47,714 nucleotides of DNA from Lacihabitans soyangensis (GTDB lineage: Bacteria; Bacteroidota; Bacteroidia; Cytophagales; Spirosomataceae): positions 1-47,714 of the forward strand of contig NZ_RJUF01000179.1 of the NCBI RefSeq assembly GCF_024343775.1, written 5' to 3'. Positions 3,377 to 26,107 of the stretch are shown one piece after another (position 1 is the first letter of the stretch; every line of letters begins with the position of its first letter). The notes beneath the pieces were generated by a model, which did not search any database, was not told the origin of the DNA, and was given only the letters and a program-made list of their open reading frames with translations. A program made the translations under genes and the position numbers.

Positions 3377-4681
3377 CTAAGACTGTTTCATTTTTAGTTT
3401 TAGTTCGCAGGCACTTCTGCCTATGCGTTTACCGTTTTTGAGACCTTCTTCGTTTGACATACGATAATGAATGCCACCGTATAGTCTTGAAAGAGCTGCT
3501 TCTTGAGCAAATTCAAAAAAAGTATCGAACGAACGAGGTTTGAGGCCTCTTTCGGCGTGAGAAAAGTCGGTAAAGCGGTAGTTATAACCAAACATGTCTG
3601 ATAGTACGGCCGCAGTGGCTCCAGAAACCGTTCCGTGGCCTGAGGTGTATTCAGGAAAAGGCGGGGTGTCGAGCAAAGGTTTCCAGTTTGGGTCAATAGC
3701 CGTGTTTATGAAACTGATTGGCCTCAGGATGTTGTATCGAAACTTGCATTTCCAACATGACACAAAAGCATCGTTGACAGCAATACCCAATCTACAAAGG
3801 GTTTCTGCTGTTTTGGCTAAATCAAAGTTTTCTTTTTTTATCAACTGCAAGGCTATCGAAATGCCATGACCAGGAGGAGTGAATGTTTTGCCAGCATCAT
3901 CGGACCAAAAAAGTGCTATTTCTTTTTGCTCCTCGTTGAGGTTTTTACCCACACTGTAAACTTCAAGGGCTTGCGAAAACATCAAAGAAGAGTTACCTAT
4001 TTCGCATCGAGGAGGTACGGGAAGTTCGAAATCAGCATTTCCTTTTATGAATGTGCGATTTGTACCCCAATAGGGTTGAAGGGCCATTTGGTTGCCCACG
4101 GGTGTCCACATGCAAGAGCCTGGTGAACTTTTAAAATCCTTCGGGAAATTATTCTTTTCGGCATGGTGACCACCGTCTGTTTTTGAGTATTTAAAGATAG
4201 CTTTGGCTATTTCTTCCCCATACTTTACCGATGCCTTGTACGTGTTTTCATTATCCTTAAACTTAGCATTTAAGGCATCTCTTAACTCAAGAATTTTTGG
4301 CTTATTTTCTTTATGATTAGCTGCGTAAAGTTCCTGAACTATAAGAGCTTGGGCATTATTAGCAACAATTTGCCAGTCATAAACTTGGTTCTTGTCTGGG
4401 AGTGGCAATTTTTCAAATTCTTGTAAAACGCCAACCAAAGATTTGTAATCTGGGGAGCCGTGAACCAAAGACTCGTAAAGTGTAAGTCCCGTGTAACCCA
4501 ATGCCCGAGAAACTACTGGAGGGGTAAAACCCGGTGTTTGGGGAATTAACTTTAGTTGTAGATCAAACCATCGGCTAGCAACTTCGTGATTCAGCTGCGG
4601 TACTTTTTTTTGGCTGTGTCCGCTTTGGAAAGTCAGAAAAAGTATTAAAAGAGATAATATTTTGACTATTTTTTGTTGCAA
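3377..4681 (-). CDS. Vanadium-dependent haloperoxidase-like protein (PAP2 superfamily), copy 1
   Basis: Vanadium haloperoxidases oxidise halides with H2O2; the fold is shared with PAP2 phosphatases. The complete vanadate-binding signature is present: Lys313-x6-Arg320-Pro, T-S-G-H at 346-349, and S-R-L-Y-G-G-I-H at 398-405 (Arg399, His405). An N-terminal signal peptide ends near F-Q-S-G-H-S-Q with no lipobox, so this copy is probably periplasmic or secreted. The start is TTG at 4681: an in-frame stop lies three codons upstream and no ATG occurs before residue 190. It follows the second copy by 47 bp on the same strand, probably in one operon. Whether it is a haloperoxidase or an acid phosphatase cannot be settled from sequence alone. 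Confidence 0.87.
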   Translation of the reverse strand: MQQKIVKILSLLILFLTFQSGHSQKKVPQLNHEVASRWFDLQLKLIPQTPGFTPPVVSRALGYTGLTLYESLVHGSPDYKSLVGVLQEFEKLPLPDKNQVYDWQIVANNAQALIVQELYAANHKENKPKILELRDALNAKFKDNENTYKASVKYGEEIAKAIFKYSKTDGGHHAEKNNFPKDFKSSPGSCMWTPVGNQMALQPYWGTNRTFIKGNADFELPVPPRCEIGNSSLMFSQALEVYSVGKNLNEEQKEIALFWSDDAGKTFTPPGHGISIALQLIKKENFDLAKTAETLCRLGIAVNDAFVSCWKCKFRYNILRPISFINTAIDPNWKPLLDTPPFPEYTSGHGTVSGATAAVLSDMFGYNYRFTDFSHAERGLKPRSFDTFFEFAQEAALSRLYGGIHYRMSNEEGLKNGKRIGRSACELKLKMKQS

Positions 4682-4728
4682 AATTTTCTAGACAAATTTC
4701 ATCTATGGTAAAACTACAAAGAATTCTA

Positions 4729-6057
4729 CTATTTCTTGAATTTTAAATTTAAAATATTTTGGGCTATTGCTTTGCCATTATCATATCCATTGGTGCAGGA
4801 AAATTCGTAGTGAATACCACCATAAAGTCTTGACATTGAAGTTTCATTGCCATATTTTTCAAAGTTCTCATATTTTCTTTTCGGAAATATACCTTCGTAT
4901 GTGTTGTCTTCGAAGGCATAAGTTTTGCCCAATATACTTTCCATTATTGTAACCAAAGCACCGGCGGCAGTACTATGGCCCGAGGCATAATCTGGAAATG
5001 GGGGATTGGCTAAAAGAGGAACCCAGTTTTTGTCCATCGTTTGTTTGATGTAAGTACTTGGACGCATTAAATAGTACTTGTATTTGCCTCGCCAGCATCC
5101 TATGAACGCATCGTTGAGGGCTAATCCCAATTTTACATAGGCCAGTGCTGTTTCATCTAGTTTTGCTTTTTTCTTAAGAAAGATATCTCGAGCAACATTG
5201 AAATGGTGCCCTGGTGGGGTTATGGTACCTGTGCCGTCTGCGAAAAAGTTGGCAATCGCTTTTTCCTCCGCACTCAAATTTTTTGAAACGTCATATACTT
5301 TTTTGGCTTCTGCAAAAAAAGTGGTGTTTTTTTCGAATGAGAAAGGAATCGGAATCTTCAGTTTATCTTCTGTATTGGCTTTTACCAATGTACGGTTTTG
5401 ACCCCAAGAAGGAAGTAAAGGAATAAGTTGAGTACCTGTAGGTCTCCAATAACCTATGCCTGATGGTAATACATAATTCTGAGGGAAGTTTGTAAGGTGA
5501 CCATTAGCACCGCCGTCGGTTTTCGAATATTCGTGGATGGCAGTAGCCAAAAGTGCCCCGTAACGCACAGATCTATCAATTACTTCATCTGTCGAACCTA
5601 TTTTAAGCTTTGTTTCATATACGCTTCTTACCGAGTCGAGCTTGCTTTTGTTTTTGTCGCTTGTGGTCAGAAATAATTGTGTCAGTAGGGTATATTGTGC
5701 TACACTCGCAACCAAGCCCCAGTTATAGATTTTGGTTGTGTCGGCAATTGGAAGCATGACCAATCCATTTAATTGTCCTTTCAAGGAATTGTGTCCGGGT
5801 ATGCCGGCCACCACACTTTCGTAAAGTGCTAATGAGGCATAACCCAATGACCTCGAGGCCACGGGTGGGGTAAACCCGGGAGTCGTTTTTATTAAATCTA
5901 GATGTATTTTTAACCAATCAGAGGCCAAGTCTCCATCAAATGTTGATGCCAGAGGTGATGGATTTACGATCACGGGGTCAACATCTTCTGCACCTTTTTT
6001 ACAAGATACGAAGGAGATAAAGGCAAGCATAGTGAAAAGGACAAATTTGGCTTTCAT
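4729..6057 (-). CDS. Vanadium-dependent haloperoxidase-like lipoprotein, copy 2
   Basis: The 442-residue product is related to its downstream neighbour. A lipoprotein signal peptide ends at Cys19 (F-V-S-C-K-K). Vanadate-site residues are all present: Lys325-x6-Arg332-Pro, A-S-G-H at 358-361, and S-R-L-Y-G-G-I-H at 409-416. The N-terminal half shares P-G-F-T-P-P-V, S-R, L-G-Y and L-Y-E-S with copy 1 and S-R-x-L-G-Y with copy 4, so the copies are paralogues. It is the first gene of a minus-strand pair, read away from the CBS gene across a non-coding region of about 315 bp. Halide specificity and actual peroxidase activity are unknown. Confidence 0.87.
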   Translation of the reverse strand: MKAKFVLFTMLAFISFVSCKKGAEDVDPVIVNPSPLASTFDGDLASDWLKIHLDLIKTTPGFTPPVASRSLGYASLALYESVVAGIPGHNSLKGQLNGLVMLPIADTTKIYNWGLVASVAQYTLLTQLFLTTSDKNKSKLDSVRSVYETKLKIGSTDEVIDRSVRYGALLATAIHEYSKTDGGANGHLTNFPQNYVLPSGIGYWRPTGTQLIPLLPSWGQNRTLVKANTEDKLKIPIPFSFEKNTTFFAEAKKVYDVSKNLSAEEKAIANFFADGTGTITPPGHHFNVARDIFLKKKAKLDETALAYVKLGLALNDAFIGCWRGKYKYYLMRPSTYIKQTMDKNWVPLLANPPFPDYASGHSTAAGALVTIMESILGKTYAFEDNTYEGIFPKRKYENFEKYGNETSMSRLYGGIHYEFSCTNGYDNGKAIAQNILNLKFKK

Positions 6058-6372
6058 TAAATTAAGCTTTTTTAATGTTATTTACTCAAAAACCTTGCCA
6101 AATGGCTTTTATAGATAGGTTTAAGCCTCGAGAAGGCATTTTTATATTCCCAAATAGAGCTTTTTGGTTTACTTTTTCGATGTATCGAGGTTCTAAATTT
6201 AATTGGGCGAACGAGGTTTATATTACTTTGGAGGTAGAGAGTCTATGGTGATTGTATGGTTAAAGATGAATCGAAATGAAAATATGATGGGCTAATTCAT
6301 CATTTTTTATACATTTTACTTGATTTTTCTAATAGTTTTACATACTTTGGTTATCTAAAAAACCTAAACATC
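6058..6372. other. Non-coding divergent promoter region
   Basis: No gene is seen. The stretch separates the minus-strand haloperoxidase pair from the CBS gene and must hold both promoters. A near-consensus promoter for the CBS gene is TTG at 6320-6322, 20 nt, then TACTTTG at 6343-6349, one base short of the TAnnTTTG consensus. Confidence 0.5.
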
Positions 6373-6810
6373 ATGCCTACGTCTGTAAAAACTATTTTGA
6401 ATAACAAAAAGATAAAGTCTATTCTTTCGGTTCTTCCATCAGCCACTGTTTTTGAGGCTCTGGAGGTGATGAGCCAGCATAATATTGGTGCTTTGTTGGT
6501 AATGGAAAACGACAAACTAGTAGGTATTTTTTCAGAGAGAGATTATGCTCGAAAAGGAATTGTACAGGGAAGAAGTGCTAAAACTACTGTGATAGCCGAC
6601 GTGATGACCCCTAACGTGTACACTGTGGAATCTAAAATGACTTCAAAGGATTGTATGGAAATAATGAACGCACGGAAATTCAGACACTTGCCTGTGGTTG
6701 ACGACGGTAATGTAGTTGGTGTACTAAGCGTTGGGGATATTGTAGGTGCTATTCTTGACGAGCAAAAAGAACACATTAAATATCTTGAAAGTTATATTGT
6801 AAACGGATAA
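6373..6810 (+). CDS. CBS-domain pair protein
   Basis: The protein has 145 residues and consists of two CBS repeats (about residues 13-70 and 77-135), which form one Bateman module. The repeats show the usual S-x-x-A-T-V-F-E-A-L, I-G-A-L-L-V-M, G-I-F-S-E-R-D-Y-A and R-H-L-P-V-V-D-D-G-N-V-V-G-V-L-S-V-G-D patterns. Such stand-alone modules bind adenine nucleotides and regulate partner enzymes or channels. No catalytic domain is attached and the partner is not evident. The final codons and stop lie in a 21-bp tandem duplication (see the repeat entry). Confidence 0.9.
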   Translation: MPTSVKTILNNKKIKSILSVLPSATVFEALEVMSQHNIGALLVMENDKLVGIFSERDYARKGIVQGRSAKTTVIADVMTPNVYTVESKMTSKDCMEIMNARKFRHLPVVDDGNVVGVLSVGDIVGAILDEQKEHIKYLESYIVNG

Positions 6811-6837
6811 TATTTAATTGTAAACGGATAATATTTA
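6796..6837. repeat. 21-bp perfect tandem duplication across a stop codon
   Basis: Two exact adjacent copies (6796-6816 and 6817-6837) contain the core GTAAACGGATAATATTTA. The first copy includes the last codons (I-V-N-G) and TAA stop of the CBS gene. The second lies just after the stop and repeats the same codons and stop in frame, giving a back-up stop. Confidence 0.95.
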
Positions 6838-6862
6838 AGAGTATATACTTCTTAAAGATATA

Positions 6863-6898
6863 AAAAAAGCACTTGAGGGTTTTCTCAAGTGCTTTTTT
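6863..6898. terminator. Bidirectional rho-independent terminator
   Basis: A 15-bp perfect stem, AAAAAAGCACTTGAG paired with CTCAAGTGCTTTTTT, encloses a 6-nt loop. It has A/T runs at both ends, so it can stop both the CBS transcript and the convergent terC-like transcript. Confidence 0.92.
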
Positions 6899-6914
6899 CT
6901 ATTATTAGCCTATC

Positions 6915-7979
6915 TTAATTGGCAGGTTTTTCTTCTTTCGGAGGGAACAACAGTGAAGCACCTATGCTCACTCCCAAAATCAAAACGATTACAATCAATG
7001 AATGTAAATTGGTGAAGCCAATACCCTCTAACCAATGGTGAGCGAGCATTTTTACTCCAATAAACGTTAAAAGAACACCCAAGCCGTATTTCAAATAAGC
7101 AAACATATCAATGATATTCACCAAGAAAAAGAACATCGAACGTAAACCCATAATGGCGAATACATTAGAGAAAAATACAATGTAAGGGTCTTTGGTGATA
7201 CTAAAAATGGCAGGAATGGAGTCCACCGCAAATATAACATCGGTGAAAGCAATTACGACTATAACCACAAACAAGGGCGTGATATACAGTTTGTTGGCTC
7301 TGTATTTGTGTCTAAAAAAGAACCTGTCAGAGACGAATTTTTCATAAACATTGAAAAATCTTGAGGTGACTTTTACCGCTGGATGGTTTTTGGTGTCTAT
7401 GTCTTCTTCCTCATCTTTAGAGAAGAGAATTTTGATACCTGTATAAACCAAAAACGCCCCGAAAACCAAAAGGATCCACTCGAATTTCTGAATAAGGGCA
7501 GCTCCCAAGAATATAAAGATGAAACGCAAAACAATAGATCCGAGAATTCCCCACACCAAAACGTCTTTATAGTTTTTCTTTCTGACTCCGAAAGAATTGA
7601 AAATCAGGATAAACACAAAAATATTATCTACTGAAAGCGAGTACTCTACCAAATAACCTGTGATGTACTCCAAGGCCATGTTGTTCTGGAAAATCTTAAG
7701 ATTTTCAGCATAGTCTGAGCCAAGCTTTAGGTTTTTATAGTACAATTGTTGAATAGTATCCAAATGACTCGCATCGCTGATGTCATGTATAAAATATCCA
7801 TAGTTTCTAAGGAAAAAGTAAAAGCCAATTGAAAGTCCCACCCAAATGGCACTCCAAAATGCGGCTTCTTTAAACTTGACAATTCCGGCCTTTTTTGGGC
7901 TAAAAGCCCCGAGGTCGAGGAGCATTACAAATATTACAAATATGGCAAAAGCCCCAAAAAACAAAACTTCGTTAGACAT
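6915..7979 (-). CDS. TerC/Alx-family integral membrane protein
   Basis: This 354-residue protein has about nine predicted membrane helices. TerC-family hallmarks are S-V-D-N-I-F-V-F in the central part and A-V-D-S-I-P-A-I-F-S-I-T further on, whose acidic residues lie in the membrane and are implicated in metal transport. E. coli Alx and Bacillus TerC-type proteins handle manganese, with links to pH and to metalation of secreted proteins. A charged cytoplasmic segment (D-E-E-E-D-I-D-T-K-N) lies between the halves. The gene is monocistronic, converging on the CBS gene. Metal export is inferred from the family. No yybP-ykoY-type riboswitch was recognised upstream. Confidence 0.87.
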   Translation of the reverse strand: MSNEVLFFGAFAIFVIFVMLLDLGAFSPKKAGIVKFKEAAFWSAIWVGLSIGFYFFLRNYGYFIHDISDASHLDTIQQLYYKNLKLGSDYAENLKIFQNNMALEYITGYLVEYSLSVDNIFVFILIFNSFGVRKKNYKDVLVWGILGSIVLRFIFIFLGAALIQKFEWILLVFGAFLVYTGIKILFSKDEEEDIDTKNHPAVKVTSRFFNVYEKFVSDRFFFRHKYRANKLYITPLFVVIVVIAFTDVIFAVDSIPAIFSITKDPYIVFFSNVFAIMGLRSMFFFLVNIIDMFAYLKYGLGVLLTFIGVKMLAHHWLEGIGFTNLHSLIVIVLILGVSIGASLLFPPKEEKPAN

Positions 7980-8073
7980 ATATCTTATAATTACTGAAAA
8001 CTGAATTAAGTCGCAATTTGCACAAAAAAATGCAAAAATGGGTAGTTTTAGGCGTAAATACTATGCAAGTACT

Positions 8074-10002
8074 TTAAATTACAGAACCAAGTTCTTCGGC
8101 TATTAGTTTGAGAATTCCTCTTTTTTTGCCGACTTGGTTCATGATTATTTCCAGGTCTTCGTCGGAGGCAGTATCCACTTCTTCTATTAGGGCGTCAATT
8201 TCTTTTTGAATTTTCTCTTTTCTGATTCTTAATACCATGCGGTAGGAAAATTCATTGAGCATCTCCTCATATTTCGGTATGAAAATCTCGAATTTATCCC
8301 ATCTCTCACTCAGCTCGTGTTTCGGACTTAGCCAACTTACGGCCACATCCTGTATTTGTGGGTTAGGGTTCGACGAAAACATTTGGCTCGTGGGTGCGTT
8401 GCCGTTGAGATACTCTGTTTTATACAGTTGGTAGATTTCATAAAAAAGTGGTGTTTCTATCCTCAGATCGTTGGTTTCGTGCAAAAGATAATCTGCTAGT
8501 GTATGGTCTTGCCCAGTTTCTTCGTCTTTCTCAATAACAAAATGCCCATAGAGCACCAAGTCTCTTACCAAAGCCTCTTCTTGAACATTGTGTTTTTTGA
8601 GGGTATTAATGATCTCTAACTCCTGATTTCGAATTGGTGGTGCTGGACTTATTATTCCGCCATCGCCTTTTTCTATTCGTTTGTTGTTATCAGTAATTTT
8701 AGTTTTGACAATTTTGTTGCCTTCATTTATCAAAATGTTTTCATCAATCTGGAGCATTTTGGCTACTTCCTGATAAAACACTGATCTTTTTATTGGATTT
8801 GGAATCTTGGTTATCGAACTCACCAAGTCAGCTATCAGTTCGGCTTTTTTTATGGCGTCGTCACCTACATCAGCTAGCGAAAGTTCCGTTTTGAAGTTAA
8901 TGAAGTTCTTCTGGTGGTTTTTGACATATTCTGAAAACGCCGCACCGCCTACTTTTCGGATGTAACTGTCGGGGTCGTCGCCGTCGGGAAAAACCACCGA
9001 CTTCACGTTCATGTCTTCTTCCAGAATGATGTCTATACCTCTTAATGACGCCTTAATACCAGCGGCATCACCATCATATAGCACAGTTATGTTATCACTA
9101 AAACGCCTGATAAGTCGCACTTGTTCAGGGGTTAATGAGGTGCCAGATGAAGCCACTACGTTTTCTATACCCGCCTGGTGCAGGGATACCACGTCGGTAT
9201 AACCTTCCACCAAATAACAATTGTCAGCTTGGCGAATAGCGTTTTTGGCCTGGTAAATTCCGTAAACTATCTGGCTTTTGTGATAGATTTCGGTCTCAGG
9301 AGAGTTGATGTATTTGGGAGCTTTTGGGTCGGTTTTGAGTATTCTGGCACCAAAAGCTATGGGTTTACCGGCCACGTTGTGTATGGGAAATATCACCCTG
9401 CCTCTAAACCTATCTATTTTTACATCACCCTCTTTTACACTTATCAGACCTGCTTTTTCAAGAATATCGCTGCTAAAACCCGCCTTTTCGGCTTTTTTGA
9501 CAAACTCATTTCTGGAGTCAAGGGCATAGCCGAGTTGAAACTTTTCAATTGCTGCTTTGGAGAATCCCCTTTCTATAAAATAGGATTGCCCCACACTTTG
9601 ACCCTCTTCCGTATTGGCCATGGTTTCGGCAAAATACTGCTGAGCATATTCCAGCACTATAAAAAGACTCTCTTTTTCGTTTTGGCTGATGAGATCTTGG
9701 TCTGTAAACTCACGTTCTTTGACTTCGATATTATACTTTTTTGCCAACCATCGCAATGCATCTGGGTAGGAGAGACCTTCCAAATCCATTACAAATCTCA
9801 GAGAATCACCACCTTTGCCACAACCGAAGCATTTGTAGATACCTTTCGACGGCGAAACATTGAAGGAAGGGGTCTTTTCGTTGTGAAACGGACAGCAAGC
9901 TATCATGCTGGCCCCGCGTTTTTTGAGGCTCACAAACTCGCCTACCACTTCTACAATGTCGGCGGCTTGAATAATTTGCTGAACGGTATCCTGAGGTATC
10001 AT
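8074..10002 (-). CDS. dnaG: DNA primase
   Basis: DnaG makes RNA primers for chromosome replication. The 642-residue protein has the normal domain order. The N-terminal CHC2 zinc finger has ligands Cys37, His40, Cys58 and Cys61 (C-C-P-F-H and C-F-G-C-G-K-G-G-D). The RNA polymerase core then shows R-F-R-G-R-V-I-F-P-I and the TOPRIM motifs V-E-G-Y-T-D-V and L-Y-D-G-D-A-A-G. The C-terminal segment of about 200 residues would be the helicase-binding domain. The ATG at 10002 is followed at once by I-P-Q-D-T-V, a typical DnaG beginning. It is not in the rpsU-dnaG-rpoD arrangement known from E. coli. Confidence 0.97.
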   Translation of the reverse strand: MIPQDTVQQIIQAADIVEVVGEFVSLKKRGASMIACCPFHNEKTPSFNVSPSKGIYKCFGCGKGGDSLRFVMDLEGLSYPDALRWLAKKYNIEVKEREFTDQDLISQNEKESLFIVLEYAQQYFAETMANTEEGQSVGQSYFIERGFSKAAIEKFQLGYALDSRNEFVKKAEKAGFSSDILEKAGLISVKEGDVKIDRFRGRVIFPIHNVAGKPIAFGARILKTDPKAPKYINSPETEIYHKSQIVYGIYQAKNAIRQADNCYLVEGYTDVVSLHQAGIENVVASSGTSLTPEQVRLIRRFSDNITVLYDGDAAGIKASLRGIDIILEEDMNVKSVVFPDGDDPDSYIRKVGGAAFSEYVKNHQKNFINFKTELSLADVGDDAIKKAELIADLVSSITKIPNPIKRSVFYQEVAKMLQIDENILINEGNKIVKTKITDNNKRIEKGDGGIISPAPPIRNQELEIINTLKKHNVQEEALVRDLVLYGHFVIEKDEETGQDHTLADYLLHETNDLRIETPLFYEIYQLYKTEYLNGNAPTSQMFSSNPNPQIQDVAVSWLSPKHELSERWDKFEIFIPKYEEMLNEFSYRMVLRIRKEKIQKEIDALIEEVDTASDEDLEIIMNQVGKKRGILKLIAEELGSVI

Positions 10003-10228
10003 TCTGTAAAATTATCTTTATTTTTCTTTCCAAAAAAGTTTTAAAGTCGAGATTCTGAATGTTATAACGGACAAACTAGGATTATCCAAATGTTTTTTTG
10101 GCTATAACCTGACCAAAAGCATTTTTTGTCTTTTTGTTTTTGTCAAATTTTGCAAAAAAAATCTTTACCAAGACAAACTCCTTAACTGCTTTAAAAGGTT
10201 TTGTTTTGTCTCAAAATGATCAAATAAC

Positions 10229-10645
10229 ATGAATTTCAGAATGGTTTTAGTTGCCAATAGAGTAGCTCTGTTTGTGGTGTATTTTTGGTTTGGCGTGTTA
10301 AAAGTAATAGGCCTTTCTCCTGCTACAGGCTTGGTGACCGACTTGGCTCATGTGACTTTGCCGTTTTTTGAAGCCGATAAATTCATTGTGTTGTTCGGTA
10401 TATTTGAGTGCTTGGTTGGTATCATGTGGCTTTGGCCCAAGTTGGCTAAAATAGCCTTCTGGTTGACAGTTTTTCATTTGATTACTACTTTTTTGCCCAC
10501 ATTTTTCTTGCCCGAAGCCGCTTGGAACCAATTTCTTACGCCTAGTTTAGTTGGGCAATATATAATCAAAAATCTGGTAATTCTCGCCTCCATATTTACC
10601 TTGTATTTTGCATCAAATCCATCTAAAAGAAAGCTTATGTATTAG
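10229..10645 (+). CDS. Small membrane protein, DoxX-like
   Basis: The 138-residue protein has four predicted membrane helices (about residues 10-28, 48-66, 72-90 and 112-130). It resembles the DoxX/DoxD-like superfamily, with an N-terminal F-W-F-G-V-L-K-V-I-G loop after helix 1 and an I-F-E-C-L-V-G-I segment. Members are often called oxidoreductase or quinone-linked membrane proteins, but their function is poorly known. It sits between divergent dnaG and the co-directional parA without apparent functional linkage. The exact Pfam family was not determined here. Confidence 0.68.
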   Translation: MNFRMVLVANRVALFVVYFWFGVLKVIGLSPATGLVTDLAHVTLPFFEADKFIVLFGIFECLVGIMWLWPKLAKIAFWLTVFHLITTFLPTFFLPEAAWNQFLTPSLVGQYIIKNLVILASIFTLYFASNPSKRKLMY

Positions 10646-10649
10646 TAGA

Positions 10650-10670
10650 TTACACAAGGCAATTGTGTAA
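10650..10670. terminator. Stem-loop after the DoxX-like gene
   Basis: A perfect 8-bp inverted repeat, TTACACAA (10650-10657) and TTGTGTAA (10663-10670), has a 5-nt loop and is followed by CTCTTTTG. It is probably a weak terminator; the T run is poor, so a protein-binding palindrome is also possible. Confidence 0.5.
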
Positions 10671-10690
10671 ATCTCTTTTGTTCTGAAAAC

Positions 10691-10718
10691 TTTTCCACAT
10701 TACGGCTACTTATCTACA
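10691..10718 (+). promoter_or_regulatory. Two DnaA-box-like sites upstream of parA
   Basis: TTTTCCACA at 10691-10699 and TTATCTACA at 10710-10718 each differ by one base from the DnaA-box consensus TTATCCACA. They share orientation and start 19 bp apart. They lie in the AT-rich gap before parAB. Two sites alone do not make an origin. Confidence 0.4.
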
Positions 10719-10756
10719 TATTCTAACAGTGTCGGTGTAGTTTTTTCAAATTTAAC

Positions 10757-10764
10757 TATCTTTG
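10757..10764 (+). promoter_or_regulatory. Candidate -7 box of the parAB promoter
   Basis: TATCTTTG matches the Bacteroidota -7 consensus TAnnTTTG exactly and lies 24 bp before the parA ATG. No convincing TTG -33 element was found at the usual spacing. Confidence 0.5.
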
Positions 10765-10788
10765 CACCTCTTTAACAGCAGACAATAA

Positions 10789-12472: not shown

Positions 12473-12591
12473 TTTTTATTTGATTTTAATTCGAATTCTT
12501 TATTCTTAATTTCTTCAAAATTTGGCTTTCTCAAGGTTAAAGTTGAAGAGCTTGCTTGTTCGTTATAGAACAAACTTTTACCTCTATTTTT

Positions 12592-12625
12592 TTGGCAAAT
12601 AATTCAATAATTTTCACTATATTTG
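12592..12625 (+). promoter_or_regulatory. gyrB promoter
   Basis: TTG at 12592-12594 and TATATTTG at 12618-12625 (exact TAnnTTTG) are separated by 23 nt, the upper end of the Bacteroidota spacing range. The -7 box is 78 bp before the gyrB start. Confidence 0.6.
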
Positions 12626-12646
12626 TGTGTTAAAATTCTACAATAA

Positions 12647-14662
<2,016 letters not shown>

Positions 14663-14684
14663 TATTCCTTTGACCATAAACTGG

Positions 14685-14712
14685 GGCGAATCGGTAACGG
14701 TTCGCCTTTTTT
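14685..14712 (+). terminator. Rho-independent terminator of gyrB
   Basis: The stem is GGCGAA (14685-14690) paired with TTCGCC (14701-14706), with a 10-nt loop and a six-T tail. It ends 7 bp before the next start codon, so that gene needs its own promoter or read-through. Confidence 0.85.
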
Positions 14713-14719
14713 ATTGACC

Positions 14720-16855: not shown

Positions 16856-16886
16856 TTGTATTTTTTAAACAATAAATTGTTTATTA

Positions 16887-16917
16887 TTGTTACCAATAAC
16901 TCTGTTTACTATATTTG
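16887..16917 (+). promoter_or_regulatory. Promoter of the acyl-CoA ligase gene
   Basis: TTG at 16887-16889, a 20-nt spacer and TATATTTG at 16910-16917 match the Bacteroidota -33/-7 consensus (TTG, 17-23 nt, TAnnTTTG). The -7 box ends 46 bp before the ATG. Confidence 0.7.
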
Positions 16918-16963
16918 TATATCACTTAATCGTTCATAATAATCAACCTAAAAATCAAATTAT

Positions 16964-18655: not shown

Positions 18656-18682
18656 AACCTAATAAAAAAATATGGTGTTTTT

Positions 18683-18710
18683 AAGACAGGTCTTTGGCCT
18701 GTCTTTTTTT
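18683..18710 (+). terminator. Rho-independent terminator of the acyl-CoA ligase gene
   Basis: The stem AAGACAGG (18683-18690) pairs with CCTGTCTT (18698-18705) across a 7-nt loop, followed by a T run to 18710. The next start codon is the very next base. Confidence 0.88.
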
Positions 18711-18956
18711 ATGAAAATAATCAACAAAATCTTCGGTGGTTTACTGATATTGGTCGTACGCCTGTATCAGATAGGTATTTCGCCCTATTTTCCTGATGCT
18801 TGTCGGTTTCAGCCAACTTGCTCACAATATATGATTGATAGTATAAAGGAGTGGGGGATTTTGAAAGGCACATGGCTCGGCTTCAAAAGAATGGCTCGCT
18901 GTCACCCATGGGGAGGACATGGTTGGGATCCTGTGAAACGAAAACACGAGCATTGA
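18711..18956 (+). CDS. yidD: Membrane protein insertion efficiency factor YidD
   Basis: YidD helps YidC/Sec-dependent insertion of inner-membrane proteins. The 81-residue product has the family signature C-R-F-Q-P-T-C-S-Q-Y and the C-terminal R-C-H-P-W-G-G-H-G-W-D-P-V, preceded by an amphipathic/hydrophobic helix. ATG 18711 is chosen because a more upstream start would place the acyl-CoA-ligase terminator inside the coding sequence. It is not beside rnpA, rpmH or yidC as in many bacteria. Its stop codon directly abuts the stop codon of the convergent TauE-like gene, with no intergenic base. Confidence 0.93.
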   Translation: MKIINKIFGGLLILVVRLYQIGISPYFPDACRFQPTCSQYMIDSIKEWGILKGTWLGFKRMARCHPWGGHGWDPVKRKHEH

Positions 18957-19919
18957 TTAACTTCGGGCGTTTTTGGATAGAAAAAAGAACAAAATTAGTC
19001 CACTCAGAAGTGTTAATCCGCAGATCGTTAATTGAAAAGCATTGGGTTTTATCACCCACATGGCTCCTGCAAACTGAACAAAAAGTATGATATTCAGGAA
19101 GTTTGCAATCGCTGTACGAGGCAGTTTCGATACTACAAATGAACCTAGCGGTGCAAATACAATCACGAAGGGTATGCAGGCAATCCACATTTCGAAGGCT
19201 TCCGGCTGAAAGTCGTTTATAACTCCGGCATGCATAAAAAAACCTAGAAGGGTTTCTATGCTCATGATGATAATGGACGAAGGAACCGCTACTTTTTCGT
19301 TAATACCGTAGTAAATGGTCATTAAACAGAAAGTGAAAATATTGATGCCAGTTCCGAAAATAGACGATATGATGCCGCCAATCAGACCGAAGAATAGCAG
19401 TTTAAGCATGTCTGATTTTTGGAAATTTTCTATCAAATCGTGCACCATTCTAGTTGGTATTAGATTTTCTCGCCAGAGTACTATTCCAAAACTCAGCCAC
19501 AGCGAAACAAAGAAAAGCTTGGCCATGGGAGGCGAAATTAAAGGAACTACGTAATAGGTGCCAAATACGAGGCCGAAAATACCACCAATCGTAACATATT
19601 TAATGTAATTCCAGTCCACCTTGATTCTTAGGCCGAGTATGAGAAGCGAGGCTGCGGTCATGCCTATACTTTGGATAGCAAATGCAAAGTTTCTCGCAAC
19701 GGCTGGTTTTATATCCAGAAGCAAGGTAAACACAGGATATGCCACAGCAGCACTGCCTTCTGGACTGGAACCAGCTATAAATGAGCCAAATATCATCGTA
19801 ACTACCGCCCAAATATGCTTTTCTATGTAGTAAAATAGCTGATTTTGCGTTACATAGATTAACCATGCCGAAATAACCAAGAGGTAAAAAACGATATACA
19901 GTTTGGGTAGTTTTTTCAA
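18957..19919 (-). CDS. TauE/SafE-family permease (putative sulfite/sulfonate exporter)
   Basis: The protein has 320 residues and about eight predicted membrane helices arranged as two similar halves, as in TauE/SafE permeases. Typical elements are G-S-S-P-E-G-S-A-A-V-A-Y-P-V-F-T in the first half and G-G-I-I-S-S-I-F-G-T-G-I-N-I in the second. Family members move sulfite, sulfoacetate or other organosulfur anions; the substrate here is unknown, and no sulfur-metabolism genes are nearby. The start is TTG at 19919: no ATG lies between the upstream in-frame stop and the first helix. It converges on yidD with zero gap. Confidence 0.85.
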   Translation of the reverse strand: MKKLPKLYIVFYLLVISAWLIYVTQNQLFYYIEKHIWAVVTMIFGSFIAGSSPEGSAAVAYPVFTLLLDIKPAVARNFAFAIQSIGMTAASLLILGLRIKVDWNYIKYVTIGGIFGLVFGTYYVVPLISPPMAKLFFVSLWLSFGIVLWRENLIPTRMVHDLIENFQKSDMLKLLFFGLIGGIISSIFGTGINIFTFCLMTIYYGINEKVAVPSSIIIMSIETLLGFFMHAGVINDFQPEAFEMWIACIPFVIVFAPLGSFVVSKLPRTAIANFLNIILFVQFAGAMWVIKPNAFQLTICGLTLLSGLILFFFLSKNARS

Positions 19920-20060
19920 ATACTTTGAATCTTTAGTTTTTTATCAATTTCAAATATAGCTTGGTATTGCAGAATTTTGGAAATTTGTCTTGGAAATATA
20001 TTAATTTCGTAATGTTTCTGAATTATAAACCGAATTTCTAGAAAACCGACGCAATTCTTT

Positions 20061-20471
20061 ATGGCAAAATCTAATGATTTAATTGAAAACGTAGCTGATC
20101 AAGTAAGCGATATAACCAAACGTCTCACGGATGTGTCCTCTCATATGGCAAGTATGGTAGAGAATTATGATTATTTGCTTCAAAATCAAACTCACGTGGC
20201 GGATAATCATGACTTGGTTATAGCCAATCAGAACACCATAATTCAGAATTTAGGTATAATTATTCACAACCAAACGGCTATTATACACAACCAGTCTAAA
20301 ATTGTTAAGAACCAAGCTTATCTCAAAACTTTTCTGTTTGCACAGGTGGAGATTCTTACTTTGTTGACCAATAGGCCAAAGGAGGAAATATCAAATGAAA
20401 TTAATATGTTTTTTGAAAATGCTCAGATTGAGATTTCTAAAGGCTTTGAAAATCCGATTGGAGAGTTGTAG
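20061..20471 (+). CDS. Asparagine-heptad coiled-coil protein, function unknown
   Basis: This 136-residue soluble protein matches no family I recognise. Residues 35-90 consist of eight consecutive heptads that each begin with Asn (Asn35, 42, 49, 56, 63, 70, 77, 84), most reading N-Q-x-x-(I/V)-x-x. With Asn at core position d and Ile/Val/Leu at position a, this is the I-x-x-N pattern of N@d coiled coils, which form trimers that hold anions in the core of trimeric autotransporter stalks. No signal peptide or membrane helix is seen, so it is probably cytoplasmic. The first 34 residues continue a weaker heptad pattern (Val11, Ile18, Val25, Met32 at a). The C-terminal 45 residues look helical and acidic. 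It faces an XRE regulator with zero intergenic bases. Confidence 0.75.
   Translation: MAKSNDLIENVADQVSDITKRLTDVSSHMASMVENYDYLLQNQTHVADNHDLVIANQNTIIQNLGIIIHNQTAIIHNQSKIVKNQAYLKTFLFAQVEILTLLTNRPKEEISNEINMFFENAQIEISKGFENPIGEL
20163..20330 (+). repeat. Eight tandem Asn-led heptads (protein-level repeat)
   Basis: The stretch encodes residues 35-90 of the protein above: a 21-base period at protein level, with codons diverged between repeats so that the DNA is not a clean tandem repeat. Heptads include N-H-D-L-V-I-A, N-Q-N-T-I-I-Q, N-L-G-I-I-I-H, N-Q-T-A-I-I-H and N-Q-S-K-I-V-K. Confidence 0.9.
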
Positions 20472-20948
20472 TTATTTCTGAATAAGACCGATTTTTTCTT
20501 GTAGAAGTATAATCTGACTCCTCAGTAGTTCAATCTCCGAAAGTTTACTGGCTTTTAGCTGTTCTTGTAATCGCATTTGTAATGTTAGCGATTCTACTTT
20601 TTGTTTTTGTAATCGCAGCTCTAGTAACAACTCATTTTTTTGTTTTTCCAAAACCTCGGCATATTCTTTGGCTTCTAAAATCTGCTTTGGGTGAGACTCT
20701 TGGTTTGCTAAGATTAGTTCGCCATCCTTATTTTTTTCCAATATCTCGGAAAATTCTAAAATATCGATACTTGTTTTAAAGAAGTCGGCAATCTTTCGGC
20801 ATATAATGAGAGATGGCGAAAATTTGTCATTTTCATAATCAGAAAGAGCACTTTTACTCACATTGACGGCCTCTGAAAGCTCTTCTAAGGTGATTTTATG
20901 ATATTTTCTTAAGTTTTTTAAATTTTGAGAAAAGTAACTTTTTGTCAT
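20472..20948 (-). CDS. XRE-family DNA-binding protein with C-terminal coiled coil
   Basis: The 158-residue protein has an N-terminal Cro/C1 helix-turn-helix (about residues 5-60; L-K-N-L-R-K-Y-H-K-I-T-L-E-E-L-S-E-A-V-N then S-K-S-A-L-S-D-Y-E-N). A linker follows, then a Lys/Glu/Leu/Gln-rich C-terminal half (about 95-158) with strong coiled-coil character. ATG 20948 gives the standard beginning M-T-K-S-Y-F-S-Q-N-L; an upstream TTG would add 21 residues of no family match. It is probably a dimeric or higher-order transcription regulator with an unknown target. It ends where the Asn-heptad gene ends; both encode coiled coils, so an interaction is conceivable but unproven. Confidence 0.85.
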   Translation of the reverse strand: MTKSYFSQNLKNLRKYHKITLEELSEAVNVSKSALSDYENDKFSPSLIICRKIADFFKTSIDILEFSEILEKNKDGELILANQESHPKQILEAKEYAEVLEKQKNELLLELRLQKQKVESLTLQMRLQEQLKASKLSEIELLRSQIILLQEKIGLIQK

Positions 20949-21085
20949 TATATCGATTTTCTTTATTCCAAAATATTGGATTTTATCTTTTGCCTTTTTA
21001 ATATTGTGCAAGCCAATTGATGTAAAAATACTAGTTTTTGTGTATTGAATTACAGAATTCTGGAAATTTAAAAACCTCTTAATTT

Positions 21086-21982
21086 ATGAAGTTGAAATTT
21101 TATCTCGTTTTAGTTTGTAGTTTTTTGTTTAGTCAATTAACCAAGGCACAAATGCCTCATGATGCTATTTATATGCCCAAAGGCACAGCCTGTTTGGCGG
21201 TAAGCTATGGCAGCAGCAGTTGGAAAGAATATTGGGAAAATACCCTCAAAAGAGAAAATCTAAACATTGGAACACATACTACTCAAAATGTAATGCCAAT
21301 GGTAGCTGCCGGAATTACCGATAAGCTGAATGTTATTGTGGGTTTACCCTATGTTTCTACAAAGGCCAGTGCGGGAAATTTGATGGGGCAAAAAGGTCTT
21401 CAAGATCTCTCACTTTGGGTTAAATACAAAATGTTTGATGGTGAAGGTTTGTCCTTGCATGCAATTGGAGGTGCTTCTACTCCCATTTCGGATTATGTCC
21501 CTGACTTTTTGCCCATGTCCATCGGTTTGAAAAGCAAAACCGCCACTGGAAGATTATTGGCCAACTATCAACATAAGTCTGGATTATACCTTACCGCTCA
21601 CGGAAGTTATTCAGGTCGCTCAAATATAAAAGTTGACAGAGACGCCTATTTGGCTTACGGCAAGATGTATAATACAGATGAGGTAGCTCTACCAAACACG
21701 ACTGATGCGGCCTTGAGGATTGGTTATTTGAAAAAGACTATTCAAGCGGAAGCATTTATTGAAAGAAATGCTTGTGTGAGTGGAGATAACATTCGAAGAA
21801 ATGATATGCCTTTTCCAACTAACAAGATGAATATGACCATGGTGGGGGCTTATGCCAAATTTCAGCCTAAAAATATTGGTTTGAATGCCCGCGTGAATTA
21901 CGTTACGAATGGACTCAATGTAGGTCAGTCATTGGGCTACAGCGTCGGATTATTGTATCAGATCAATAACATCAAGTTTTAA
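21086..21982 (+). CDS. Predicted outer-membrane beta-barrel protein A
   Basis: The protein has 298 residues with a signal peptide cleaved near T-K-A-Q (residue 22). The remainder is rich in alternating hydrophobic/aromatic strands with G-x-Y/L turns and ends in an aromatic residue (I-N-N-I-K-F), typical of outer-membrane barrels. It resembles the loose 'transporter / MetA phenol-degradation' barrel group; no precise function is recognisable. It is the first gene of a run (20- and 24-bp gaps) with a haloperoxidase-like lipoprotein and a second barrel, so a joint envelope function is likely. An upstream gap of about 140 bp should hold the promoter; TAGTTTTTG near 21030 is a poor match to the -7 consensus. 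Confidence 0.7.
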   Translation: MKLKFYLVLVCSFLFSQLTKAQMPHDAIYMPKGTACLAVSYGSSSWKEYWENTLKRENLNIGTHTTQNVMPMVAAGITDKLNVIVGLPYVSTKASAGNLMGQKGLQDLSLWVKYKMFDGEGLSLHAIGGASTPISDYVPDFLPMSIGLKSKTATGRLLANYQHKSGLYLTAHGSYSGRSNIKVDRDAYLAYGKMYNTDEVALPNTTDAALRIGYLKKTIQAEAFIERNACVSGDNIRRNDMPFPTNKMNMTMVGAYAKFQPKNIGLNARVNYVTNGLNVGQSLGYSVGLLYQINNIKF

Positions 21983-22002
21983 TTTTTAAAGAATATTCTA
22001 AA

Positions 22003-23541
22003 ATGAAAAATATTTTCAAATCTATAATATTGTGCATTGCTTTTTGTGTAGCTTTTTCATCATGCGACAAAACCGTGGACGAGCCCGCAACGGATGCTTA
22101 TATTCCAGCCTCATTAGACTTAGGTGCGGGTTCTTGGAAAACGTATGTTTTATCTTCACCAACAGAGGTAACTGTAGCCGAACCAAAGGCGGCCTCTTCG
22201 GCGGAGTATTTGGCCGAAATTGCAGCATTGAAGACTACAATTTCCACTATTACACCTGAAAATAAAAAAGCCATTAATTATTGGGGTGCGGGAGCCACTT
22301 ACAGATGGAACGAAATAGCTAGAGAATTGTCGGCAAAGTATAATCAACCTCCAGCCTCAAATGCCGAGGGTAAATATCCTGTGCCAGATGCAGCCAATCC
22401 ACTTGCCGATCCTCGTTTTCCTTTTGCCAATCCGCCTTACGTTTCTCGTGCTCTGGCCTATTTGAGTGTAGCACAATACGACGCTTTGGTAAGTGCATGG
22501 AATTATAAAACAAAATATAATAGAAAAGCTCCATCAAAGAATGACCCATCGGTTTCTGTTCTTTTGCCAGTTTCTGATTTGCCAAGCTATCCATCTGAGG
22601 ATGCCGTTGTTGCGGCAGCTTCTTATACTATTTTGGTGGCCATGTTTCCAGGCGAAGTTCCATATCTAGATGGAAAACTTGCTGAGGCAAAAAATACCAG
22701 ATTATGGGCTGGAATGAACGTTCCGAGTGATATTTCCGCTGGTGATGCTCTTGGAAAAGCGGTTGCGGCCAAAGTAATGGCAAAGGCCAAAACGGATGGA
22801 ATGGCTGCTTCTAACAATCAGGCTGTTACTGCGTCAATGATAGAAAATGCTAAGAAATTGGGTGTAAAAACTCCTTGGGTAAGTCAAGAAACGCCAGCAA
22901 GACCACCGATGTTGCCTAATTTTGGAGCTGTAGCCACTTGGAATTTTGACAAAGCCACAATGATTAAAATCAGACCATCTATTCCTTATTTAGAAGATAC
23001 TAAGGAATTTAAAGATGATTTAGCAGAACTCAATAAAATCAATAAAAACCAAACACGAGAACAATCTCGAATTGCCAATTTTTGGGCAGACGGTCCTGGC
23101 AGTTACACACCACCTGGTCATTGGCACAGAACTGCTGCCAATGCCGCCTTTGATGCCAAGTTTAGCGAAGTTAGAATGGCCAGAACCTTGGCCTTGGTTG
23201 GAACTGCACTTATGGATGCGGGAATAGCCTGTTGGGATACAAAATATTACTATTACACCCCTCGTCCTCAACAATTTGGGTTAAAAACCTCTGTAGGTTT
23301 GCCCAATTTCCCATCATATACATCAGGTCACTCTACTTTTTCCTCTGCAGCAGCTACTGTTTTGGGTTCAATATTTCCTGCAAAATCAGCTGAGTTTGAT
23401 GCTAAGGCATTAGAGGCATCAAATTCGAGAGTTTTTGGCCTGATTCACTACAGGATAGATTGTGAGATGGGATTAGCTCATGGTAAAAAAATTGGGGAAT
23501 ATGCTATTGCCAGAGGTAAAGCAGATGGATCAGGTCTTTAA
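22003..23541 (+). CDS. Vanadium-dependent haloperoxidase-like lipoprotein, copy 3
   Basis: This is the longest of the four copies (512 residues). The lipoprotein signal ends at Cys21 (A-F-S-S-C-D-K). The signature is Lys414-x6-Arg421-Pro, T-S-G-H at 440-443 and S-R-V-F-G-L-I-H at 475-482: Arg476 and His482 are kept, but the Gly before Ile-His in the other copies is Leu. The N-terminal half has about 70-80 extra residues and lacks the P-G-F-T-P-P-V segment of copies 1 and 2, so this is a distinct subfamily. It starts 20 bp after barrel A and ends 24 bp before barrel B. Peroxidase versus phosphatase activity is undetermined. Confidence 0.85.
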   Translation: MKNIFKSIILCIAFCVAFSSCDKTVDEPATDAYIPASLDLGAGSWKTYVLSSPTEVTVAEPKAASSAEYLAEIAALKTTISTITPENKKAINYWGAGATYRWNEIARELSAKYNQPPASNAEGKYPVPDAANPLADPRFPFANPPYVSRALAYLSVAQYDALVSAWNYKTKYNRKAPSKNDPSVSVLLPVSDLPSYPSEDAVVAAASYTILVAMFPGEVPYLDGKLAEAKNTRLWAGMNVPSDISAGDALGKAVAAKVMAKAKTDGMAASNNQAVTASMIENAKKLGVKTPWVSQETPARPPMLPNFGAVATWNFDKATMIKIRPSIPYLEDTKEFKDDLAELNKINKNQTREQSRIANFWADGPGSYTPPGHWHRTAANAAFDAKFSEVRMARTLALVGTALMDAGIACWDTKYYYYTPRPQQFGLKTSVGLPNFPSYTSGHSTFSSAAATVLGSIFPAKSAEFDAKALEASNSRVFGLIHYRIDCEMGLAHGKKIGEYAIARGKADGSGL

Positions 23542-23565
23542 CCAAGAAAATTAAATAATTAAGAA

Positions 23566-24630
23566 ATGAAAAGAATATTACTTTTAGTTGGTCTCGTTTT
23601 TTCAATAAGTCAAGCTTACTCTCAAGGTTGTATAGCGGTTAGACACATGGCTTGTGCTTCGGGCAGAGTAAACAATGGCACTTCGACAATGTTAGACGGT
23701 CAATGGCAATTTACAACTGGATATAGATATCTGCATTCATACAAGCATTTTGTAGGTACAGAGGAGCAAACTCATCGCGTTAAGGAAGGTACAGATGTAA
23801 GAAACTGGTCACATTCGTTTGACTTTGGCCTTTCTTATGCTGTAAATGACAGACTCAATATTGCAATTAATATGCCCTATAATGACAATTCAAGGTCTTC
23901 ATTGTATGAGCATTATGGAAACTCAGTAGAAGCTAATCCAGAGAGGAAAAGATTTTTTACTTATTCCAGAGGAATTGGGGACTTAAGGCTAACCTCTACG
24001 TATTGGGTATTAGATCCAAATACCCATGTGAAAGGTAACTTTGCGGTTGGTTTGGGTGTTAAAGCTCCCACTGGCGATGCCAACGTACAGGGTGACTTTT
24101 ATAAATTAGATAAAAACAAGAAAGAGTACATTCTTAGTAAAGCTGTTGATCAATCTATCCAATTGGGTGATAGTGGTTGGGGAGCGAGTATCGAAATTCA
24201 AGGATATCAGTCTGTTTTTAAGAATGCAACCGTCTATTACAACGGATTTTATCTATTTAGTCCGAAAGGTGTTAACGAGCAAACGGGCCTTTCTGTGCCA
24301 GATCAATTTGCTGGTAGGCTTGGAATGAATTATAATATTTTGCCCAAAAAAGGAGTAGCTCTAAGTCTGGGCGGAAGAGTGGAAGGATTGCCGGCAATTG
24401 ATGCAATCGGTAGTAGTGAGGGTTCTCGTAGGCCTGGTTATATAGTTTCTATCGAGCCTGGTGTGGTCTGGATGAATAGCAGACATACTGTTGCGGTTTC
24501 TACTCCTTATGCTATTGTGCGTAACAGAATCAAATCGTGGAGTGATCGCCAAGATCCCGCTGGTTTAAGGCATGGGGATGCGGCTTTTGCTGATTATTTT
24601 GTTTCGGCAACTTATTCGTATAGATTTTAA
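23566..24630 (+). CDS. Predicted outer-membrane beta-barrel protein B
   Basis: The protein has 354 residues. A signal peptide ends at A-Y-S-Q (about residue 20), followed by a Cys-containing segment G-C-I-A-V-R-H-M-A-C-A-S-G at the mature N-terminus. Strand-like repeats such as F-D-F-G-L-S-Y-A-V and G-V-G-V-type turns and the final V-S-A-T-Y-S-Y-R-F, with terminal Phe, mark it as an outer-membrane barrel. The two closely spaced Cys could form a disulfide or bind something in the plug. It follows haloperoxidase copy 3 by 24 bp and precedes copy 4 by 124 bp. The substrate is unknown. Confidence 0.72.
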   Translation: MKRILLLVGLVFSISQAYSQGCIAVRHMACASGRVNNGTSTMLDGQWQFTTGYRYLHSYKHFVGTEEQTHRVKEGTDVRNWSHSFDFGLSYAVNDRLNIAINMPYNDNSRSSLYEHYGNSVEANPERKRFFTYSRGIGDLRLTSTYWVLDPNTHVKGNFAVGLGVKAPTGDANVQGDFYKLDKNKKEYILSKAVDQSIQLGDSGWGASIEIQGYQSVFKNATVYYNGFYLFSPKGVNEQTGLSVPDQFAGRLGMNYNILPKKGVALSLGGRVEGLPAIDAIGSSEGSRRPGYIVSIEPGVVWMNSRHTVAVSTPYAIVRNRIKSWSDRQDPAGLRHGDAAFADYFVSATYSYRF

Positions 24631-24754
24631 TTGCTTATTTTAGTGAATTTCAAGGTCGATTGATAGTTTTAAGCCTTTTATTAAGTAAAAGTTTAGGAAA
24701 TATAAATTCTGGTCTCATTTTTGATTTCCTTACTTTCAACTTAATTTGTATTTT

Positions 24755-26107
24755 ATGAAAAGTAATATTTATATTTTATTTCTGGTAGTCGTCTTTTCTT
24801 TTGTTGGTTGTAAAGACACCGAGAAAGTTCCAGATCCCGTTGAGCTTGAAATATCTAATGTAGTTGCTGATAAATGGGCGGAAATGACGCTTAGGCATCT
24901 GAAAGCTCAGCAGCTAAAAACTCCAACATATGTTTCTCGGTCTTTGGGCTATATCGGTCTTACGATGTACGAGTCCGTGGTCAATGGCAGTATTGTTTAT
25001 CAATCTGTGGCTCCACAATTAAACGGACTCGGTACACTTCCAAAACCGGAAAAAGATAAGGCCTATGACTGGGAAACTTCTCTGAATGCGGGCCAGGCAT
25101 ATATTATTAAACAAATGTGGCAACATGCCATGGCAACTGATAATAAGAGATTGGACTCACTGGAAAATGCCATTTATGCCGAGAGAAATTTAGTAGTAAC
25201 CGATACCGCAACAATTGGTCGTTCAAAAAGATATGGATTGAGTGTTGCCAAGGCTATATATGAATGGTCAAAAACAGACGGGGGGCATTTGGGCTATTTG
25301 ACAAACTTTGACCCGAAGTATGTATTTCCTAGAACTACTATGAACTGGACACCGCCAATGAACGGTCAATCCTCCGTATTAATGCCTCTTCACCCACACT
25401 GGGGTAAAAATAGGACTTTTACCTCTACTAATTCTCAGTTATCTATTCCGGAAATGATTCCATACTCTGACGATAAAAACTCTGCTTTTTATAAGGAGTT
25501 TAAAGAGGTTTATGATATTCAGCTGTCACTGACTCAAACTCAAAAGGAAATTGCCAACTGGTGGGGAGATGACCCATCAGAGACTTATGCTCCTCCTGGC
25601 CACTCTTATAGCTTGGCACTGCAAATATTGAGAGTAAAGAAGCCAAATCTTTTCACGGCGGCAGAGTCATTCGCTAAAGTGGGCATGTCAGTGGCTGATG
25701 CATTTATCAATTGTTGGAAATGTAAATACACTTATCACTCTATCAGACCAGCGGCATATATCCGTAAAAACATTAAAGGTTCTTTTGAACAATTTTGGCC
25801 TGAACCGCCTTTCCCAGCTTTTGCCTCAGGTCATGCTACCCAAGCCTCGTCAGCCGCGGAAGCTCTGATTAGTGTTTATGGTGATAACGTGGCTTTTGAC
25901 GACATGACTCACGTGGGTAGGCCAAAGGATATATTCAGAAATGTAGAGTATAAAAAACGAAGCTTCACTTCAATATCTCAAACTGCCATAGAATGTGGAA
26001 TATCACGATTGTACGGAGGAATTCACACCAGTCAAGACAACGAAGTAGGTTTAGCCGAAGGAAAGAAAATTGGAGGAAATATCAACGCTCTTTCTTGGAA
26101 AAAATAA
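24755..26107 (+). CDS. Vanadium-dependent haloperoxidase-like lipoprotein, copy 4
   Basis: The 450-residue protein has a lipoprotein signal ending at Cys19 (F-V-G-C-K-D-T-E). The Lys-Asp after Cys loosely resembles the acidic surface-export signal known from Bacteroidota lipoproteins. All vanadate ligands are present: Lys324-x6-Arg331-Pro, A-S-G-H at 357-360 and S-R-L-Y-G-G-I-H at 417-424. It is closest in pattern to copies 1 and 2 (C-W-K-C-K as in copy 1). ATG 24755 is preferred to an in-frame TTG three codons upstream. A hairpin terminator follows, so the barrel/haloperoxidase run ends here. Confidence 0.87.
   Translation: MKSNIYILFLVVVFSFVGCKDTEKVPDPVELEISNVVADKWAEMTLRHLKAQQLKTPTYVSRSLGYIGLTMYESVVNGSIVYQSVAPQLNGLGTLPKPEKDKAYDWETSLNAGQAYIIKQMWQHAMATDNKRLDSLENAIYAERNLVVTDTATIGRSKRYGLSVAKAIYEWSKTDGGHLGYLTNFDPKYVFPRTTMNWTPPMNGQSSVLMPLHPHWGKNRTFTSTNSQLSIPEMIPYSDDKNSAFYKEFKEVYDIQLSLTQTQKEIANWWGDDPSETYAPPGHSYSLALQILRVKKPNLFTAAESFAKVGMSVADAFINCWKCKYTYHSIRPAAYIRKNIKGSFEQFWPEPPFPAFASGHATQASSAAEALISVYGDNVAFDDMTHVGRPKDIFRNVEYKKRSFTSISQTAIECGISRLYGGIHTSQDNEVGLAEGKKIGGNINALSWKK

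Follow-up and report, generated by a model that had tools for sequence, protein, structure and literature searches.

Introduction

Few bacterial haloperoxidases have been characterised. Haloperoxidase genes are already known in the phylum Bacteroidota, where the closest described enzyme to the proteins analysed here is VIPO1 of Zobellia galactanivorans (structures 4cit and 4usz). The nearest hint of a biological role is the up-regulation of one Zobellia vIPO on a brown alga, as given in the available text of PMC9296495. The vanadium chloroperoxidase of Curvularia (1idu) and the bacterial enzyme NapH1 (3w35) are further relatives, and NapH3 (8cxl), titled a haloperoxidase homolog catalysing a rearrangement, has the same fold and provides a precedent for leaving halide chemistry. 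The accessible part of PMC13198595 states that the residues that decide halide use are largely unknown, and that of PMC12871659 describes an enzyme near the iodoperoxidases that was found to chlorinate, with bromide preferred; halide preference therefore cannot be read from residues. In Saccharina japonica, as far as the available text of PMC11765636 goes, V-HPO genes are present in many copies and in tandem clusters.

Here we describe four vanadium haloperoxidase (VHPO)-like genes in Lacihabitans soyangensis, carried in a window (the whole stretch of DNA analysed, 47,714 bp) that is the entire contig C179 of a genome of 5.65 Mb assembled into 198 contigs. The four proteins are related to VIPO1 over their full length and share with it the five vanadate ligands, a Trp/Phe pair, the predicted fold and, in three cases, a lipoprotein-like start, but they lack a segment that VIPO1 carries between its FW and PGH motifs. 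They have the fold and ligands of the Curvularia enzyme and NapH1, and keep the His that is missing from the NapH3 motif. Class A acid phosphatases (7f17, 1d2t, 8yc1) also have the PAP2 core and the ligands, but, unlike the window proteins, consist of a single bundle, are about 220 residues long and have no Trp/Phe pair. Whereas the eukaryote S. japonica reached 88 copies by tandem duplication (PMC11765636, available text), the genome studied here holds a few old paralogues.

Results

Four intact VHPO-like genes in the window

The four VHPO-like ORFs reported by an initial annotation of this DNA were open and intact at the coordinates that it had given (Table 1). It had named no strand: V3377 and V4729 lie on the minus strand, and the plus-strand reading contains many stops. 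The start of V3377 is less certain, because its TTG follows soon after an in-frame stop and no in-frame ATG is nearby, while the ATG of V24755 lies within a slightly longer ORF that starts with TTG at 24746. Signal peptides and Cys positions, on which our statements about cell location are based, were read by eye. This count reproduced the annotated lipoprotein-like starts of V4729 (Cys19), V22003 (Cys21) and V24755 (Cys19) and the ordinary signal peptide of V3377, and the annotated vanadate-ligand motifs K-x6-RP, SGH and SR-x4-IH were likewise found in all four copies.

The four copies are not one set. V3377 and V4729, 47 bp apart on the same strand, form an old tandem pair and are probably co-transcribed, and V22003 and a barrel-like gene make up a conserved unit. 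On the plus strand, OMP21086, V22003, OMP23566 and V24755 are arranged in this order with gaps of 20, 24 and 124 bp. A promoter and terminator scan of positions 2300-6600 returned 14 promoter-like sites against 12.2 in shuffled sequences and 2 terminator-like sites against 3.7. tRNA and Rfam scans gave no matches, and no NCBIfam model scored above its cut-off for the four VHPO-like proteins. Two short transposase-like ORFs were seen elsewhere in the window.

Table 1. Coordinates of genes in the window and of related genes at other loci.
Feature	Position	Strand	Description
Hemerythrin/RIC-like gene	2640-3347		Family match; flanks the V3377-V4729 pair
V3377	3377-4681	-	Type A VHPO-like; ordinary signal peptide; TTG start
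V4729	4729-6057	-	Type A VHPO-like, predicted lipoprotein; in tandem with V3377
CBS-domain-like gene	6373-6810		Assigned by eye; flanks the V3377-V4729 pair
OMP21086	21086-21982	+	Outer-membrane beta-barrel-like; constant upstream neighbour of V22003
V22003	22003-23541	+	Class B VHPO-like, predicted lipoprotein
OMP23566	23566-24630	+	Probable second barrel protein; often, not always, a neighbour
V24755	24755-26107	+	Type A VHPO-like, predicted lipoprotein
Transposase-like ORF	37637-38182	-	Short; REP-type, by eye
Transposase-like ORF	41428-41856		Short; InsA-type, by eye
V4729 orthologue	L110:9770-11098	-	Ligand-less; conserved gene place
V4729 orthologue	L122:1-1341	-	Ligand-less; conserved gene place
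V4729 orthologue	L259:7933-9243	-	Ligand-less; conserved gene place
Second V22003-class gene	L182:7437-9005	-	Ligand-less; full length
Second V22003-class gene	L184:15208-16746		Ligand-less; full length
Second V22003-class gene	L183:10465-12036		Ligand-less; full length
S/TPPPE protein	L173:6062-6577		About 180 residues
S/TPPPE protein	L188:6486-7037		About 180 residues
TonB-dependent receptor	L173:9176-11371		Siderophore/FecA-like
TonB-dependent receptor	L197:5255-7483	-	Siderophore/FecA-like

All four copies have VIPO1 as their best solved relative

The other three window copies are homologues of V4729, with 40, 37 and 29% identity. By sequence, the best solved relative of every copy was VIPO1 (E against 4cit, 4.7e-65 for V3377, 9e-64 for V4729, 1.4e-48 for V24755 and 7.1e-14 for V22003). 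VIPO1 was also the top fold match for both models made: the V4729 model (pLDDT 90.8) matched 4usz with a TM of 0.87 by target and E 6e-25, at about 32% identity in the structure alignment, and the V22003 model, of middling confidence (pLDDT 73.2), matched 4usz and 4cit with E 8.5e-13 and 6e-12 and TM 0.66 and 0.69. For V3377 and V24755, of which no model was made, the haloperoxidase fold is supported by the sequence match to 4cit. The Curvularia enzyme 1idu is distant in sequence, with E 0.046 or weaker to V4729.

Comparison with class A acid phosphatases left VIPO1 as the first match throughout, in sequence for the four copies and in fold for the two models. The phosphatases ranked below it by fold (E 3e-3 for V4729 and 2e-4 for V22003), and V22003 matched the acid phosphatase 7f17 by sequence at E 5e-5. 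Its motif spacing of 29 + 32 residues is short and phosphatase-like (31-35 + 32 in acid phosphatases). The PAP2 family PF01569, which covers both haloperoxidase and phosphatase activity, scored above its cut-off of 27.2 for V22003 (46.9) and V24755 (33.0) and below it for V3377 (20.5) and V4729 (19.6); the N-terminal chloroperoxidase Pfam models stayed below their cut-offs for the window copies.

Two further residues occur in all four copies, a Trp at the third position before the Lys and a Phe at the seventh before the His; they contribute to the shape of the halide site of the Curvularia enzyme. The Trp was present in 228 of 228 aligned rows and the Phe in 223 of the 227 having a residue there, a conservation that is partly expected because the rows were collected with a profile of these same proteins. 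Neither residue occurs in the two acid phosphatases compared.

The copies belong to four old groups

In a tree of 144 rows (quick method, SH-aLRT support only, with long-branch warnings), V4729, V3377 and V24755 fell into three separate groups, each containing rows from other genera (support 99, 100 and 100), and V22003 lay in a deep clade of its own (support 100) with relatives in other genera. Since each group includes relatives from other genera, the four copies must have split before the genus arose, which bears out the annotated view of diversified paralogues; recent tandem duplication of the window copies is contradicted by this tree. VIPO1 joined the group of another copy of this genome, on contig C6 (support 100, 10 rows), and not that of any window copy, so that orthology of the window copies to VIPO1 is not supported.

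A core tree of 47 rows was rooted on two acid phosphatase fragments; four PAP2 proteins of the same genome, meant as outgroup, had no match in the motif filter and were left out. The initial annotation had proposed a tree with characterised haloperoxidases and acid phosphatases as a check on its haloperoxidase assignment. In the core tree the type A rows (V3377, V4729 and V24755) joined 4cit and 1idu with support 100/100, the 1idu branch being very long, and by this grouping these three are placed with haloperoxidases and not with phosphatases. The V22003 class fell between the type A clade and the two phosphatase fragments.

The gene order around the tandem pair recurs in other genomes of the genus. 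The run of hemerythrin gene, V3377, V4729, CBS-domain gene, TerC and DnaG is common to the window genome, G003, G009 and G008, and G006 and G004 have V4729 at the same gene place, without V3377. The G007 contig starts inside this run, and the contig fetched for G002 is without it.

Copy number is ordinary and clusters are uncommon elsewhere

The genome holds seven VHPO-like copies, the four in the window and one each on contigs C44, C185 and C6. Within the genus, copies occur in 8 of 10 genomes, five of which have seven; in the family Spirosomataceae they occur in 145 of 150 genomes, with a mean of 4.94 among the matches listed and at least four in 112 of the 150, counts of 11 being lower bounds as up to 11 candidates were scored per genome. 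Seven copies are thus ordinary for genus and family, and the census contradicts the idea that this number is exceptional.

When seven copies were placed at random in 5.65 Mb, four fell within 22.7 kb in about 2 of 100,000 trials (2e-5), so their closeness is not chance, although clustering is expected for genes born by local duplication. The annotated claim that four copies within 23 kb is unusual holds in part. Clusters are uncommon elsewhere: of the 80 named loci that ranked best among 561, which come from several phyla and in some cases end at contig ends, 79 carried a single copy in the stretch examined and one (Emticicia) carried four. An Emticicia genome, probably that of E. aquatilis (L124, L125), is denser than the window: seven VHPO-like genes fall within about 36 kb there, and a 23-kb part of this holds five.

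A barrel-like gene lies directly upstream of the V22003 class

In the order, 45 of 194 genomes had V22003 relatives (E up to 1e-40) and 47 had OMP21086 relatives (E up to 1e-15), and all of the 45 were among the 47. The two extra barrel matches (G251 and G255) comprise one at a contig start and one cut-short frame. The barrel gene was directly upstream of the V22003 relative on the same strand in all 47 loci fetched, which came from 40 of the 45 order genomes and seven more (six of the genus and one Emticicia), with estimated gaps of 1-517 bp; in L198 a small ORF lies between the two. A 48th locus, in G008, is without V22003. Outside the order the barrel gene was directly upstream in 16 of 16 loci, which are all the matches there. 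Across Bacteroidota, pairing was thus seen in 65 of 66 judgeable loci (the 47, the 16, the window and G309), the exception being G303, where the pair is 2.8 kb apart on one contig; in G252 and G295, which are outside this count, the pair is split over different contigs. V22003 in L160 and L176 and the barrel gene in L186 and L122 had been missed by ORF calling and were found by tblastn.

OMP21086 matched Pfam PF13557 weakly (23.7 bits, cut-off 22), and its homologue in L127 had no Pfam match. OMP23566 had no Pfam match, and its match to FapF was below the cut-off; its relatives occur in 13 of 49 loci and in 5 of the 16 distant loci. In 4 of the 16 distant loci, the same run includes a type A gene 44-45% identical to VIPO1; two of these four have Cys for the Ser of SGH and keep the five ligands. 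This neighbourhood, not assay, links the V22003 class to the iodoperoxidase type.

Two other families were seen around the barrel pair. Proteins of about 180 residues that end in S/TPPPE, mostly with a hydrophobic start, are encoded near it in 32 of 49 loci and 9 of 16 distant loci; two were scanned and had no Pfam match. A siderophore/FecA-like TonB-dependent receptor family occurs in 5 of 49 loci, with some members between or after the barrel and V22003 genes.

Vanadate ligands have been lost repeatedly

The alignment had 228 rows, including two characterised enzymes; the ligand site is covered in 226, and 220 of these keep all five ligands. Three of the six losses are V4729 orthologues, that is, three of seven in the genus. 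G003 and G007 read SSLYGGNQ where the window V4729 has SRLYGGIH; in G004, whose orthologue sits between the hemerythrin and CBS genes as in the window, the motif His is lost as well. The ligands are intact in the window, in G009, G008 and G006, and in the Emticicia rows shown. Since G003 and G007 group as sisters, with G004 basal and intact rows in between, parsimony suggests two separate events. G003 and G007 were the only one of 15 V4729 pairs with low dS, the rest being saturated or nearly so; they gave dS 0.262, dN 0.015 and dN/dS 0.056 over 443 codons, which indicates purifying selection, although some of this divergence may be older than the loss.

The remaining three losses, in G013, G047 and G062, concern a second V22003-class gene that has a second barrel gene next to it. 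In these genes the catalytic His motif and the final Arg/His are gone; among the first V22003-class genes, every covered row retains the ligands. Neither a haloperoxidase-barrel gene pair nor repeated ligand loss was found among the matches listed from the open-licence PMC literature.

Discussion

The four window proteins are most likely exported haloperoxidases of old, separate lines, one class of which works with a barrel protein at the outer membrane, a reading that we hold with moderate confidence. In each protein the five residues Lys, Arg, His, Arg and His would bind vanadate, which hydrogen peroxide would convert to peroxo-vanadate; a halide, most likely iodide or bromide, would then be oxidised to hypohalous acid outside the cytoplasm. 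V24755 is a third old paralogue beside the V3377/V4729 pair, and V22003 is a separate class that would act at the outer membrane together with OMP21086, which could pass halide, peroxide, product or substrate across the membrane beside the enzyme. Our data show homology, the ligand residues, a predicted fold, orthologue groups and the gene pairing; vanadate binding, halide oxidation, the outer-membrane location and the role of the barrel are inferred. The haloperoxidase assignment draws on VIPO1 being the best solved relative by sequence and by fold, on the presence of the five ligands and the Trp/Phe pair in all four copies, and on the grouping of the type A rows with 4cit and 1idu. It is weakened by the finding that VIPO1 is nearest to the C6 copy and not to the three type A copies of the window. 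The partnership of V22003 with the barrel is suggested by the near-constant upstream position of OMP21086 and their co-occurrence in the order, and the VIPO1-like genes in the same run at some distant loci favour both parts of the reading; the weak Pfam match of the barrel and the 2.8-kb gap in G303 speak against its part.

The same five residues hydrolyse phosphate esters in PAP2-type phosphatases, where vanadate would merely inhibit, and some or all of the copies, V22003 above all, could be exported enzymes of that kind. Behind VIPO1, V22003 also resembles acid phosphatases in sequence and in fold. The spacing of its motifs is short like theirs, its place in the core tree is between them and the type A clade, and the PAP2 Pfam family includes both activities; with the middling pLDDT of its model, these features count against a haloperoxidase assignment for V22003. 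However, the Trp and Phe of the haloperoxidase site occur in all four copies and in neither phosphatase compared, the full-length fold matches are haloperoxidases with phosphatases far below, and VIPO1-type genes share the run at 4 of 16 distant loci, so that we regard a phosphatase function as rather unlikely. That the four copies are recent local duplicates with one redundant function is highly improbable: they are indeed close neighbours, with 47 bp between two of them, but the other three are just 29-40% identical to V4729, the closest relatives of each copy are found in other genera and not in the same genome, and their gene places are common to other genomes of the genus.

Because three of its orthologues are without vanadate ligands, the V4729 locus need not encode a haloperoxidase. 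Part of the set may thus have left vanadium chemistry, with V4729 and perhaps others acting without vanadate ligands in binding, structure or another reaction, much as NapH3, a haloperoxidase homolog whose motif has no His, catalyses a rearrangement. The different losses in G003/G007 and in G004 at the same gene place, the dN/dS of 0.056 and the ligand-less second V22003-class genes that still lie beside a second barrel gene in three genomes all fit this idea. Against it, the ligands are kept in 220 of 226 covering rows and in all four window copies, and the low dN/dS comes from one pair and may partly predate the loss; we consider it unlikely. Returning to exported haloperoxidases, we suggest tentatively, as a possibility, that in Bacteroidota the V22003 class is joined with OMP21086 in an oxidant machine of two parts at the outer membrane, in which a dedicated barrel would feed halide or peroxide to a lipoprotein haloperoxidase or release its hypohalous acid. 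In some lineages VIPO1-type enzymes would belong to it as additional members, and sister copies such as V4729 would be drifting to vanadium-free roles.

Genomes of this family carry about five haloperoxidase-like genes on average. Repeated ligand loss at one gene place provides a natural experiment on non-halide roles, and the barrel-like gene that almost always accompanies one class is a concrete candidate partner and a clue to the site of oxidant production.
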